DNA of 22,249 nucleotides from a virus: IMG/VR virus record IMGVR_UViG_3300020442_002932, positions 1-22,249 of that record; one strand, written 5' to 3'. Below, one piece after another: positions 2,432-19,404 of this stretch. The translations under genes were made by a program, and so were the position numbers. The notes beneath the pieces were generated by a model, which had not been told where the DNA came from, did not search any database, and was given only the letters and a program-made list of their open reading frames with translations. Position 1 is the first letter of the stretch. Every line of letters starts with the position of its first letter.

Positions 2432-3346
2432 ATGCGATTTGGATTGTGCTGCATATCGTTAGATTTGCAAGAATTAGAAGAACCATACAAGTTCCAGACT
2501 ATGACCTATAAGCGTTTTAGTTCTCTCCCACGCGATGAAGCTATAAATATTTTAGGTTCTCGTATACTCAATAACATGAAAGTAACACATGCTCATATCA
2601 AGCACTGTGCAGACAATGACTACTGCTATCGTATTAGTAGTGATTTATTTCCTCTTATTACCTATATTGCTGCCGATGTTATACTTACTGATTTACCTCA
2701 ATACAATGAGATCGAACAAGAAATAGAAGCAATAAGACAAACTATACAAAATACAGGTGTTCGTATTTCTTGTCACCCTTCAGAGTTTAATGTTCTTGCA
2801 TCCACTAATCAAGATGCTGTTGACAGAACAATCAGAGAATTAAATTTCTATTCAGAATTTCTTGACAACTTAGGATGTCCTGCCGATTATAATTCGCCTA
2901 TGAATTTACACATTAATAATCGACAAGGAAGTAACGATGAGATTGTGGATAGGTTTATCGAAAATTATAACAGACTTGATGATAATTGTCGTCGTCGTAT
3001 TGTTATTGAAAATGACGATAAACTTAATTGCTGGTCTGTAAAACAGCTTATAGAAGATTTTTATCCTAAAACAAGAATACCAATAACATTCGATTATTTA
3101 CATCATTCTTGTCATCCTGACGGTTGGACAGAAGAATTTGCTGTTTTAGCTTGCGTAAACACATGGCAAGGTTATAGACCGCTTTTTCATTACAGTGAAT
3201 CTGCACCGGGAAATAACCCAAGAAAACATGCAGATTATGCAGAAAAAGACTTTTATCAATATGGCGAAATAGACTATGATGTAGATATGGAATTAAAAAT
3301 GAAAGACAAAGCAATCGCTAAATTTATGGAAGGTGTATCTATATGA
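2432..3346 (+). CDS. uvsE: UV-damage endonuclease (UVDE/UvsE family)
   Basis: UVDE nicks DNA directly 5' of UV photoproducts (and other lesions), starting an alternative excision repair route. The protein has the TIM-barrel metal-site pattern of the family: HPSEF (His115), MNLHI (His160), IEND (Glu193), TFDYLHH (Asp221, His224), LFHYSES (His253) and KHADY (His266). The N-terminus 'MRFGLCCISLDL' is also typical. At 304 aa it matches the normal length of bacterial members. It sits directly behind a strong promoter and is followed by a small membrane gene overlapping by ATGA. A phage copy would repair genomes damaged by sunlight, suggesting a host in an illuminated aquatic habitat (inference). 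Confidence 0.93.
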   Translation: MRFGLCCISLDLQELEEPYKFQTMTYKRFSSLPRDEAINILGSRILNNMKVTHAHIKHCADNDYCYRISSDLFPLITYIAADVILTDLPQYNEIEQEIEAIRQTIQNTGVRISCHPSEFNVLASTNQDAVDRTIRELNFYSEFLDNLGCPADYNSPMNLHINNRQGSNDEIVDRFIENYNRLDDNCRRRIVIENDDKLNCWSVKQLIEDFYPKTRIPITFDYLHHSCHPDGWTEEFAVLACVNTWQGYRPLFHYSESAPGNNPRKHADYAEKDFYQYGEIDYDVDMELKMKDKAIAKFMEGVSI

Positions 3347-4204: not shown

Positions 4205-4498
4205 ATGCCTAATCCAAAAAGTCCAAAAAACAAAAACAATGTTCGTACTATTACGACCCCATCACCTTATGGTAGTCATTCTAGTATGATCGTTAACATC
4301 GAGGATGAAGCAAAAGGACATAACGTTCCTAAAGACAAAGTTATATGTGAAGATGAAAATGGTTATTATGTTACATATAAATCTAGAATAGATAGTGGGC
4401 TTGCAGACCCAAGTAGATATGCATGTCCATTATGTAGATTTAATAATCTCAATATAATTTTCTCTGATTGGGGCATAGTTGATAAGAAAACAAAATAA
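4205..4498 (+). CDS. Hypothetical protein with one CPLC motif, 97 aa
   Basis: ATG preceded by TTGGAG at 4194-4199. The N-terminal 25 residues are basic and polar (MPNPKSPKNKNNVRTITTPS) and probably disordered. The body contains 'DKVICEDENGYYVTYKSRID' followed by 'YACPLCRFNN' near residues 72-81. Only one CxxC pair is present, so a full zinc site would need other ligands (Cys48 or the His residues) or a dimer. Function unknown. Confidence 0.65.
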   Translation: MPNPKSPKNKNNVRTITTPSPYGSHSSMIVNIEDEAKGHNVPKDKVICEDENGYYVTYKSRIDSGLADPSRYACPLCRFNNLNIIFSDWGIVDKKTK

Positions 4499-4505
4499 AT
4501 GCCTC

Positions 4506-4533
4506 TTGACGAGATCGGCATAAAAAATATTAT
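4506..4533 (+). promoter_or_regulatory. Probable sigma70-like promoter before the pseudoknot leader
   Basis: TTGACG at 4506-4511, 16-base spacer with CGGCATA (a variant of the CGATA element at the same offset), and TATTAT at 4528-4533. Transcription would start near 4540, a few bases before the pseudoknot-like leader, so the RNA 5' end and the structure fit together. Confidence 0.55.
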
Positions 4534-4544
4534 TAATTAACAGT

Positions 4545-4594
4545 TTAAGTTTTAACGGGGTGGTAGTTAAAAACTTAATAGGATATTAACCACC
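4545..4594 (+). promoter_or_regulatory. Candidate H-type RNA pseudoknot in a 5' leader
   Basis: Stem 1 pairs 4545-4556 with 4566-4578 (12 base pairs with one bulged A at 4573). Its 9-base loop contains GGTGGT (4559-4564), which is perfectly complementary to ACCACC (4589-4594), giving stem 2. Connecting loops are 2, 1 and 10 bases, which suits classic H-type geometry. The Shine-Dalgarno GAGG (4602-4605) follows eight bases later. By analogy with the phage T4 gene 32 leader pseudoknot, a protein-bound or translation-regulating element is plausible; this role is inferred. Confidence 0.55.
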
Positions 4595-4611
4595 AGTTTG
4601 TGAGGTATATA

Positions 4612-4842
4612 ATGACTAAACAAGATCGTGTTTTGAACTATCTTCGTCGAGGAAGAACTCTTAGCCAAGATAGTGCTTACAGTATGTTTGAGGTAGGAAA
4701 TCTTCGTGCTACTATTAGCGACATTAAGCCTACTCTAAAGTCTGAAGGATATGAAGTAGTTCGCAGTACAGGACGTAACGGCGAAACCAGATATGGTGCT
4801 TCAAGTAAACGAAAGAGTAGACGTAGAACATGCTCTAAGTAA
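4612..4842 (+). CDS. Small winged-helix/HTH DNA-binding protein with basic tail, 76 aa
   Basis: The ATG at 4612 is six bases after GAGG; a GTG at 4600 overlaps that site and is less likely. The sequence (MTKQDRVLNYLRRGRTLSQ, residues 1-19, then 'LRATISDIKPTLKSEGYEVV' about 31-50) matches the short phage helix-turn-helix type in which a 'QxRVLxxLxxG' helix precedes a recognition helix and a wing (RSTGRNGETRYG). The last dozen residues (SSKRKSRRRTCSK) are strongly basic, suggesting extra nucleic-acid contact. It follows a leader that can fold as a pseudoknot, so it may regulate its own mRNA or a promoter. HTH assignment is good; the target is unknown. Confidence 0.75.
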   Translation: MTKQDRVLNYLRRGRTLSQDSAYSMFEVGNLRATISDIKPTLKSEGYEVVRSTGRNGETRYGASSKRKSRRRTCSK

Positions 4843-4877
4843 TGAGCAATTAGAATAATGGCCCAGTAAAAGCCCAA

Positions 4878-4927
4878 GGGTATATCTAATATATCAAACA
4901 GATATAGATAGTTCGGCTTGCTATCCC
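4878..4927 (+). other. Possible structured RNA element or weak terminator
   Basis: In the gap 4843-4967 two adjacent hairpins can form: TATATCT (4881-4887) with AGATATA (4900-4906), and GATAG (4907-4911) with CTATC (4921-4925). GG (4879-4880) and CC (4926-4927) can close them into a three-way junction. A T-rich stretch (ATTATTTTTATAT) follows, so an inefficient terminator or processing site after the winged-helix gene is possible. I see no coding frame here. Confidence 0.3.
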
Positions 4928-4967
4928 ATTATTTTTATATCTATAGAAATTCATCTACGGTATTTAT

Positions 4968-5335: not shown

Positions 5336-5685
5336 GGGGGCGTAAAGGTTTCGACAGGTTTGGAAGATTTATATTTAGCAAGTAGTAGTTGATCTGGAGG
5401 CTACTTTAAAACCAGATTAAAACGCTTAACTGGCGAAACTCAGTTAGCACTCGCCGCTTAGTAGCGGTGACGATCTTAGGAAGCGATGAAGGGAGCGTCC
5501 AAAAGATCGACGTAAAATCCTTCGGCAATCATAATCGCCAACTGATTGTGGTCTGAGTTTTAGTTGGAAGAAACGTATGCTGGTTTGTCCTTTGTCTGCA
5601 TAATGTTTCTATTAACAATGGACTAAACTTGTAGAAGATATAATGAACTAAATACTGGACAGGGGTTCGACTCCCCTCGCCTCCA
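5336..5685 (+). ncRNA. ssrA: Transfer-messenger RNA (tmRNA), one-piece
   Basis: tmRNA frees stalled ribosomes and adds a degradation tag. The 5' GGGGGCG (5336-5342) pairs with CGCCTCC (5678-5684, one G-U) to form the acceptor stem, with A5685 as discriminator; CCA is not encoded. The 5' 'GGTTTCGACAGG' and the T-arm 'AGGGGTTCGACTCCCCT' are diagnostic. Pseudoknot PK1 is visible: AGTAG/CTACT and ATCTGG (5392-5397) with CCAGAT (5412-5417). Eleven bases after it an open frame begins: the predicted tag is TGETQLALAA (5429-5458), or GETQLALAA, followed by tandem stops TAG TAG (5459-5464). The exact resume codon is inferred by spacing as in E. coli. The RNA abuts the upstream stop codon and needs 5' processing if co-transcribed. 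A tmRNA in a phage-like context is uncommon. Confidence 0.95.
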
Positions 5686-5688
5686 CTT

Positions 5689-17347: not shown

Positions 17348-17453
17348 GGAAATTGAATTAGTAGTTGGGAAAGATTACGCATTGATTTTATACGGCTATA
17401 TGAACCATATGATAGGTGGTAGTAATGAGCAAACTGTACAAAAACAAGACTAA
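17340..17453 (+). CDS. Very small hypothetical protein, 37 aa
   Basis: Starts inside the previous small gene and overlaps the PspC-domain gene by 29 bases. Sequence begins MIKEIELVVGKDYALILYG and ends polar. Support comes only from the continuous chain of overlaps in this part; the peptide has no recognisable motif and may not be expressed. Confidence 0.35.
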   Translation: MIKEIELVVGKDYALILYGYMNHMIGGSNEQTVQKQD

Positions 17454-17613
17454 AGGTATGATCTTTGGAGTCTGTGCTGGTATATCTGACTTTCTGGGTA
17501 TTGACGTAAGATTAATTAGAATATTATTTATTGTTGCGGCAATCACTACAGCAAGTGCTATGTTTTGGGTTTATTTACTGTTGGGGGTATTTTTACCTAA
17601 TAAAGATGACTAG
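17425..17613 (+). CDS. PspC-domain membrane protein, 62 aa
   Basis: The start at ATG 17425 follows GGTGG (17415-17419); a GTG at 17416 is a weaker option. The product is a nearly complete stand-alone PspC domain: 'KTKGMIFGVCAGISDFLGID' (about residues 8-27), 'VRLIRILFIVAAITT' and a second hydrophobic stretch 'FWVYLLLGVFLPNKDD'. PspC proteins sit in the inner membrane and respond to or protect from membrane stress. A phage copy might protect the infected cell membrane or block the host stress response; this is inference. It is followed two bases later by a membrane-anchored thioredoxin. Confidence 0.88.
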   Translation: MSKLYKNKTKGMIFGVCAGISDFLGIDVRLIRILFIVAAITTASAMFWVYLLLGVFLPNKDD

Positions 17614-18119: not shown

Positions 18120-18994
18120 TACTTGTATTAAGTTTTACACATCTTTATGGACAAGAAGCACCAGATTTAGGTAAAATTTTAGAAAATGTTTTACAAAAGC
18201 ATTACGGAAATACCTCTCTAGACACTTTAGAAAGCATGAACGCTAGATCAGTGCCTATCGAGTTAGAAGCATTTGAATTAGAGGATAAAAGGAATTTAGA
18301 TAAAAATTGCATTTTTAATAATGTTATGTCTTATACTACTAAGCCTTTTAGTGGTAAATGGGGTAGACCAACAGATGTTCACGAAACTGTACATGGTATT
18401 AATAATGCATTAAGTAATATTAAAAGTGGATATAGAGCATTCTATGTAGGTGAAGGTAAAGCTATTTGGATTCAAGAACCTAATGTAACAATGGATGATA
18501 TTGTGCCTTTAATACCAGAAGAACTAAGAGGTTATAGATTTCCCTTATATTTTTTAGAACAAAAAAAACACTGGAATGATGTAGCATTATATCCCCTAGA
18601 AGAGTGGTGCGCATACATAGCTGGCGCTGAATGCGCTGTAGACGATTATAGTAGATATAATATTGATCCCACAAAATATAAGTCACATCCATATGATAGT
18701 GCTACTGCTATTAGAACAGATGAAGTTTCAGGATCATTAGAGTTTGCAATATACTGTACTGCATTAGCTATGGCTGTAAGCAGAAAAGATAAAGAATATT
18801 GGAAGAACCATACTCAATTTAAAAGAGCTATGAAATTCTTTTTAGTAAAAGCAGAGAAGATATTTTTTGAAGGTAAAGACATATTTAAATCTGAAAAACA
18901 AGATAAATTATTAAATGCACTACAAAATTCTTCAGAAGGTGTAAATATAAGAAATTTTTTACGCACATCTTTTGATGGAGTTTTTCTAGAATGA
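18086..18994 (+). CDS. Secreted HExxH metalloprotease-like protein, 302 aa
   Basis: The ATG lies inside the end of the thioredoxin gene. A classic signal peptide is visible (MVKLFRGIFTVILVLSFTHL, then YGQ at about 21-23). The zinc-binding motif HETVH is at residues 99-103 ('DVHETVHGINNAL'), and a downstream helix 'LEEWCAYIAGAE' (171-182) offers the Glu expected as third ligand in gluzincin-like peptidases. 'SGSLEFAIYCTALAMAVS' is a further conserved-looking helix. I do not recognise a named family, and proteolytic activity is inferred from the motif only. Exported position and neighbours suggest action on the host envelope or outside the cell. Confidence 0.65.
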   Translation: MVKLFRGIFTVILVLSFTHLYGQEAPDLGKILENVLQKHYGNTSLDTLESMNARSVPIELEAFELEDKRNLDKNCIFNNVMSYTTKPFSGKWGRPTDVHETVHGINNALSNIKSGYRAFYVGEGKAIWIQEPNVTMDDIVPLIPEELRGYRFPLYFLEQKKHWNDVALYPLEEWCAYIAGAECAVDDYSRYNIDPTKYKSHPYDSATAIRTDEVSGSLEFAIYCTALAMAVSRKDKEYWKNHTQFKRAMKFFLVKAEKIFFEGKDIFKSEKQDKLLNALQNSSEGVNIRNFLRTSFDGVFLE

Positions 18995-19404
18995 ATAATA
19001 AAAATGATAGTGTTTGGCGGATACCTAATCTGTCAGAATTAATAGACCTGCATAATAAAGCTAGGGCTGATAATTCTTGGATGTGGTCTATGAATCCACT
19101 AGTTATGAATAACGCATTAATGAATTTTGCTCAAGATTGGGCAGAAACTATGGCTACACAAAATAGATTAAAGCATAGTGATATGCAAGACATAATGCAA
19201 CTAGGCTTTTCTAGGGTCGCAGAAAATATAGCTTATGGTCAAATGGATGTTAAATCAGTAATGAGTACTTGGTTATCAAGTCCTCGTCATCGAAGAAATA
19301 TATTAAGTAAATCAGTTGATAGTATAGGTTGTGGTTTTTCCTATAGCAGTAAAGACATTATCTATTGGTGTGTATGTTTTGGAAAATCTAAAGATAATGC
19401 TTGA
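18991..19404 (+). CDS. CAP-domain (SCP/PR-1/YkwD-like) protein, 137 aa
   Basis: Coupled by ATGA overlap to the preceding gene. The CAP core is complete in outline: 'ELIDLHNKARADNSWMWSMN' (16-35), 'AQDWAETMATQNRLKHSDM' with His62, 'GFSRVAENIAYG' with Glu78, and 'MSTWLSSPRHRRNIL' with His100 of the CAP cavity, then 'IGCGFSYS...YWCVCFGK'. Such His/Glu tetrads bind metal or lipids. Bacterial CAP proteins are usually exported, but no signal peptide is seen here. Its role is unknown; sharing an operon with an exported HExxH protein suggests an envelope or host-interaction function. Its stop TGA is inside the -35 of the next promoter. Confidence 0.88.
   Translation: MNNKNDSVWRIPNLSELIDLHNKARADNSWMWSMNPLVMNNALMNFAQDWAETMATQNRLKHSDMQDIMQLGFSRVAENIAYGQMDVKSVMSTWLSSPRHRRNILSKSVDSIGCGFSYSSKDIIYWCVCFGKSKDNA

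Follow-up and report, generated by a model that had tools for sequence, protein, structure and literature searches.

A covarying H-type pseudoknot before phage winged-helix genes: a probable new RNA control element

The leader of a small winged-helix (wHTH) gene in a 22,249-base virus record, the whole of which is here called the window, carries an H-type pseudoknot for whose reality the comparative evidence is decisive. Leaders of wHTH genes in many uncultured phages share this knotted fold despite differing in their letters, and the genes usually neighbour phage tRNA or tmRNA genes; such a pattern marks a probable new RNA control element. Its tentative role is to govern how translation begins, by way of a fold-recognising protein, with the wHTH protein as first candidate.

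Architecture of the leader

All features described in this section lie on the plus strand, and all leader coordinates agree with the sequence, base for base. A sigma-70-type promoter (TTGACG, 16 nt, TATTAT; 4506..4533) matches the consensus at 10 of 12 positions, with the -35 element at 4506-4511 and the -10 element at 4528-4533. RNA polymerase would start near 4540, and the first ~55 nt of the transcript would fold into the pseudoknot. Stem S1 comprises 12 pairs, its 5' arm (4545..4556) pairing with 4566-4568 and 4570-4578 and leaving A4569 bulged in the 3' arm (4566..4578). Loop L1 has two nucleotides (4557..4558; 1-5 nt across the 48 accepted leaders defined below) and leads into the 5' arm of stem S2, GGTGGT (4559..4564), while a single nucleotide at the S2/S1 junction forms L2 (4565..4565; 0-3 nt across the same leaders). 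The 10-nt loop L3 (4579..4588) includes AGGA, a motif present in L3 of 21 of the 48 accepted leaders, which come from both groups of relatives, and is followed by the 3' arm of S2, ACCACC (4589..4594). The columns homologous to S1 covary, as do those of S2. The predicted S1 helix of ~11-12 bp may stack coaxially on S2 (5-8 bp). Crossing helices, a short L1, an L2 of zero to a few nucleotides, a longer L3 and covariation in both stems are together the features of the H-type class.

The 3' edge of the pseudoknot lies 17 nt ahead of the start codon, and a Shine-Dalgarno sequence, GAGG (4602..4605), is found 7 nt 3' of the knot. The wHTH gene (4612..4842) begins at ATG 4612 and encodes 76 amino acids with a basic tail; GTG 4600 is an alternative start, and relatives start at ATG 4612. 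A first-pass annotation, made from the letters of the window, had proposed a promoter, then an H-type pseudoknot, then a winged-helix gene. This order is borne out by the coordinates and by comparison, and S1, S2 (GGTGGT/ACCACC), loop sizes of 2, 1 and 10 and the Shine-Dalgarno sequence were all confirmed in the sequence.

Relatives and their two groups

Viral contigs were searched with four queries: the window protein, the alignment A2 of its relatives, and each of two divergent members. These returned 43, 59, 34 and 57 loci, mostly overlapping. One further locus, L104, comes from a contig binned with a metagenome-assembled 'Flavobacteriales' genome. Its leader and gene are nearly identical to those of L014, and it is probably misbinned phage DNA. 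With identical copies dropped, 56 distinct leaders remained, the window included. Comparison with phage isolates found no DNA similarity, and no protein similarity for the window, L042 and L193 proteins at the thresholds used; the L186 protein, searched at E up to 10, gave just weak matches to Rhizobium, Pseudomonas, Gordonia and Helicobacter phages. No isolated relative of the element-bearing phages emerged from the searches made.

The leaders fall into two groups. In group 1 (the window and L001-L103), S2 is mostly GTGGC/GCCAC or a variant of it and L3 often carries UUUUAGGA. The distant group (L186-L200) keeps the pseudoknot architecture with wholly different letters in S1 and S2; its S2 is, for example, GGATGC/GCATCC, and its S1 is split by an internal loop of the AA/AA type. 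The wHTH protein of the window is 48% identical to that of a distant member over 61 residues, with the core VGNLRATISDI in common. The terminase of a group-2 record shows 61% identity to that of Synechococcus phage S-H38, of the family Kyanoviridae (a T4-like cyanophage), whereas that of a 231-kb group-1 record shows merely ~25% identity to isolates; with terminases this unlike, the phages that share the element must be very different. A Portal_T4 search gave no match anywhere, controls included, and is uninformative.

Two sets of leaders show other pairings by eye and are excluded from the support counts. L196-L198 have an S1 of GTGCG/CGCAC and an S2 of GACTGG/CCAGTC. In L075, L091 and L096, the loop of a short hairpin may pair between the Shine-Dalgarno sequence and the ATG (e.g. 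AGCGGT with ATTGCT), a pairing that would block initiation directly and that carries no statistical support.

Evidence for the fold

Ordinary nested folding of the window leader is unremarkable (z = 0.02) because the program cannot form crossing stems. A custom-written pseudoknot finder was used in a form that tolerates a single small bulge or internal loop, an earlier bulge-free version having missed L001, L002, L003, L005 and L006. With this finder, none of 200 dinucleotide shuffles matched the score of the window leader. At most one of 200 shuffles reached the score in 43 of the 56 distinct leaders, and at most 10 of 200, the 5% level, in 48. The 48 accepted leaders are the 56 minus eight removed by hand after failing the shuffle test (L031, L033, L038, L075, L091, L096, L196 and L197). 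Scores of -22 or lower were obtained for 22 of 34 wHTH leaders versus 3 of 314 regions upstream of the loci's other ORFs, one of these three being a misfiled wHTH leader, L082.

A model trained on the first-scan leaders, when applied to 17 loci from the second scan or from genomes, gave eight matches at E < 0.01, one of which, L104, has a leader near-identical to training row L014. Weaker matches were returned for L092, L079, L081 and L090 (E 0.16-1.4) and none for L075, L080, L091, L096 and L098, although the finder detects a strong knot in L080. In three divergent relatives, L031, L033 and L038, the wHTH gene is kept but no pseudoknot can be recognised before it, so the knot is dispensable in some phages.

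Pair counts rest on A1, a MAFFT alignment, cut around S2, of the 29 distinct first-scan leaders with a finder-detected knot, from which L031, L033, L038 and identical copies were excluded before counting; the distant-group MAFFT alignment, A3, misaligns several rows. In A1, whose rows are related and include near copies (L002/L003/L005 and L010/L013/L014/L015/L043), 84.2% of cells are paired versus a shuffled mean of 69.0 (sd 1.3), and the paired cells fall to 43.0-56.2% when the 3' partners are slid by 1-3 columns. Two-sided changes occur in 81 cells versus a shuffled mean of 30.3, and the covariation score of 0.498 was reached by none of 500 shuffles. These changes affect all 11 S1 pairs and three of the five S2 pairs across the 29 aligned leaders. 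The first-pass annotation had named an absence of compensatory changes from either stem as the result that would count against it; they are present in both. RNAalifold recovered S1 unprompted, with 10 pairs and two-sided changes in each. The sole invariant column of A1 (C51 of the window row) lies within S2, and no unpaired position is invariant.

The mismatches tolerated in the stems have a bias of their own. Over 15 pairs of A1, the outermost S1 pair being omitted, there are 35 G-U and 6 A-C cells (shuffled means 56.7 and 33.5), a ratio reached by none of 2000 shuffles; the difference between G-U and A-C over 16 pairs is not significant (44 of 500 shuffles). Because duplex DNA would treat G-U and A-C alike, the bias of G-U over A-C favours an element that acts as RNA over a DNA palindrome.

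Position, copy number and neighbouring genes

Promoter-like matches are about as frequent in the stretch as expected (11 found, 9.4 expected), and the window promoter alone is unremarkable. It is supported because 54 of the 56 distinct leaders match at 9 or more of the 12 positions. From the end of S2 to the start codon the distance is 12-25 nt (median 18; n = 48 accepted leaders), and this spacing is kept in L024, L025 and L036, which have an N-terminal extension and a start codon several codons upstream. The gap between the -10 element and S1 is looser, at 1-26 nt (median 11; n = 46).

The element is confidently present once per record. Of 25 records, 22 had a confident match, one each, and the best match always stood before the wHTH gene; the records of L033, L034 and L039 had none. 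Weak extra matches (E 0.1-0.7) were refolded as candidate second copies and rejected, L105 and L106 lying inside genes and L107-L109 forming no comparable knot. A further weak match, L110 (G025:C1:11597-11663, minus strand; E 0.7), has GTGGT/ACCAC arms before another small ORF and is possibly a degenerate leader copy.

Downstream of the wHTH gene, the window encodes a tmRNA with the tag GETQLALAA (5336..5686, plus strand). Two small ORFs lie between them, and the tmRNA probably shares a transcription unit with the wHTH gene. Of the 54 loci scanned, several of which are near copies, 41 have a tRNA or tmRNA gene downstream on the strand of the wHTH gene (22/31 and 19/23). Such genes lie only upstream in L187 and L192, and 9 of the 31 loci of the first set have none downstream within the DNA scanned. 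In L024 the gene begins 36 nt past the wHTH stop codon. Tags encoded near the wHTH gene in relatives are ADTSVLALAA, GETQLALAA, GSHQLALAA and GTTPFALAA. For L024 (5559-5591) ARAGORN gives an odd tag of 26 amino acids, as it does for L025 and L037, with a near copy of this tag in L061; the L024 tmRNA sequence read in frame gives ADTSVLALAA and a stop, and the longer tag is probably a misreading by the tool.

The winged-helix protein

AlphaFold2 predicts a winged helix of the order H-b-H-H-b-b for the window protein (mean pLDDT 86.7), with a basic tail of low confidence. The protein matches Pfam HTH_39 (PF14090) at 22.8 bits, above the gathering cut-off of 21.3, and 25 of 29 members match this family at E <= 0.01. 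It also matches PHROG 4973, annotated 'unknown function', and among viral proteins it mainly matches phage HTH proteins with no name or a generic one. The GNLRATIS helix forms invariant or nearly invariant columns in the wHTH alignment. Winged helices usually bind DNA, and in structure comparison the best solved matches were MarR-like and Nse1/MAGE-type winged helices, which are DNA-binding regulators or complex subunits; none reached E <= 0.001. A sequence search of solved structures gave no match, and an NCBIfam search nothing useful.

Function of the leader

The knot keeps a fixed seat behind the Shine-Dalgarno sequence, lacks any unpaired base that is invariant and has a single partner gene; together with the type of protein encoded, this argues for a structural platform that affects translation initiation. 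The 3' edge of the knot, ~18 nt upstream of the start codon, would fall at the rear edge of the area bound by the 30S subunit. A protein that recognises the fold, most likely the wHTH protein itself, might bind there and hinder the ribosome, and binding of the wHTH protein to its own leader would close a feedback loop. Modelled accessibility gives no clear on/off picture and does not decide the mechanism because it is just moderate: with the pseudoknot imposed, the ribosome-binding region has a mean unpaired value of 0.54 and reaches at least 0.7 in 2 of 42 leaders, and with the loops also blocked the Shine-Dalgarno window has a mean of 0.54 and reaches at least 0.7 in 11 of 42. The modelled loss of accessibility is mostly due to weak pairing with the early ORF. 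An alternative structure, shared across leaders, in which L3 would hide the Shine-Dalgarno sequence was sought and not found.

The controlled wHTH cistron would lead a region bearing tRNA and tmRNA genes, which raises the question of how a phage controls its own tRNA/tmRNA genes. A more elaborate proposal, and a rather doubtful one, is that the wHTH protein recognises the pseudoknot by its shape rather than its letters and that its own mRNA leader serves as the sensor setting how much a tRNA/tmRNA operon of the phage yields. If true, this would be a previously unknown RNA-based circuit for the supply by a phage of its own translation and ribosome-rescue RNAs.

The strongest rival to translational control holds that the pseudoknot stabilises or insulates the 5' end, guarding the mRNA from 5'-end-dependent decay and leaving the ribosome-binding site free with no need of a regulator. 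This is possible, if somewhat doubtful. S1 begins 1-26 nt (median 11) past the -10 element, close to the transcription start, a purely physical barrier would be expected to keep its architecture while its letters drift, as here, and no common structure hides the Shine-Dalgarno sequence. However, a plain hairpin would suffice for such a role, which leaves unexplained why a crossing S2 is retained at a set spacing from the start codon, and the spacing is tighter to the start codon than to the promoter. Stabilisation is compatible with translational control, and the two are not exclusive.

It is unlikely that the leader works as a put-like antiterminator, in which the nascent RNA would bind RNA polymerase and allow read-through of the untranslated tRNA/tmRNA region. 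The element does resemble put of phage HK022 in being a structured RNA directly 3' of a phage promoter, as putL lies just downstream of its own (excerpted text of PMC9378689), and its transcription unit often runs into tRNA or tmRNA genes. According to the same excerpts, however, putRNA consists of two adjacent stem-loops of ~70 nt, binds RNA polymerase and is present in two copies per genome, and they mention no pseudoknot (PMC9378689); the helices here cross, and the leader has no such pair of stem-loops. A promoter-linked antiterminator also sits poorly with a spacing that is tighter from S2 to the start codon than from the promoter, and with the nine first-set loci that have no tRNA or tmRNA gene downstream.

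Sensing of a small molecule, which the first-pass annotation had offered as an option, is weakened by the comparison, and a riboswitch of the H-type pseudoknot kind is improbable. PreQ1 and SAM-II riboswitches have the same topology in a compact pseudoknot and the same place before the Shine-Dalgarno sequence, and the AGGA of L3 recurs in the leaders. Here, though, no conserved core of the type that binds a ligand is seen: A1 contains no invariant unpaired position, stem and loop letters change wholesale between the two groups, and no conserved alternative hides the Shine-Dalgarno sequence. No Rfam riboswitch was matched, and the partner gene is of a regulator type rather than a metabolic one.

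Still less probable is a DNA operator, in which the wHTH protein would bind S1 as an inverted repeat in the DNA immediately past its own promoter. The site does lie at the transcription start and the fold is of a DNA-binding type, but the GNLRATIS helix is kept across groups while the letters of S1 vary freely, G-U is tolerated and A-C avoided, unlike in a palindrome of duplex DNA, and S2 is a second, interleaved pairing. Chance pairing, for which the z of 0.02 in single-sequence folding might speak, is ruled out by covariation, the finder against shuffles, the upstream-region controls and the G-U/A-C ratio.

Relation to known systems

Searches of Rfam 15 found no family over its gathering cut-off in the whole window, in 4380-4960 at E up to 10 or in the leaders of L017, L024, L061 and L080. 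The element was not found described in a literature search in which subscription journals were thinly covered, so a prior description is possible. Pseudoknots in the mRNAs of the ribosomal proteins S15 (rpsO) and S4 (alpha operon) lie beside the ribosome-binding site and serve autogenous control. The leader resembles them in this position, but those knots, unlike the one here, overlap the start region, and they mimic rRNA sites.

Gene 32 of T4, T2 and RB69 offers the nearest likeness. There too a phage mRNA for a nucleic-acid-binding protein carries an H-type pseudoknot close to its 5' end and ahead of the Shine-Dalgarno sequence, and the structure of the knot is kept while its sequence diverges (PMC3014915; PMC535899). 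Like gene 32, the wHTH gene has a leader pseudoknot upstream of its ribosome-binding site, and L031, L033 and L038 lack it as RB49 lacks that of gene 32 (PMC3014915). The T4 pseudoknot is given there as ~28 nt long and 67 nt upstream of the start, with an unstructured UUAA(A) region after the knot that is bound cooperatively by the single-stranded DNA-binding protein (PMC3014915). In contrast, the element here spans ~50 nt with a long S1 and ends ~18 nt before the start of a winged-helix gene. A stretch of UUAA(A) repeats is absent, there being only 12-25 nt from S2 to the start codon, and the product is an HTH_39 winged helix rather than the gp32 single-stranded DNA-binding protein. Autoregulation like that of T4 gene 32 fits the leader as an analogy, not as membership of that class. 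The element would add a second case, one that is broader and of independent construction, and it offers dozens of naturally compensated variants for assay.

Other genes in the window

The window encodes several further recognisable genes. A ThyX thymidylate synthase gene lies at 507-1172 and a UvdE-type UV endonuclease gene at 2432-3346. Between 6241 and 16111, sulfotransferase-like and glycosyltransferase-like ORFs are densely packed around a DNA ligase gene and an 8-oxoguanine-glycosylase-like gene; one of these ORFs matches Pfam Sulfotransfer_1 (E 1e-24), and the remaining ones were judged by eye. A PspC-domain membrane protein (17416-17613) and a CAP-domain protein (18991-19404) are both unusual phage cargo.
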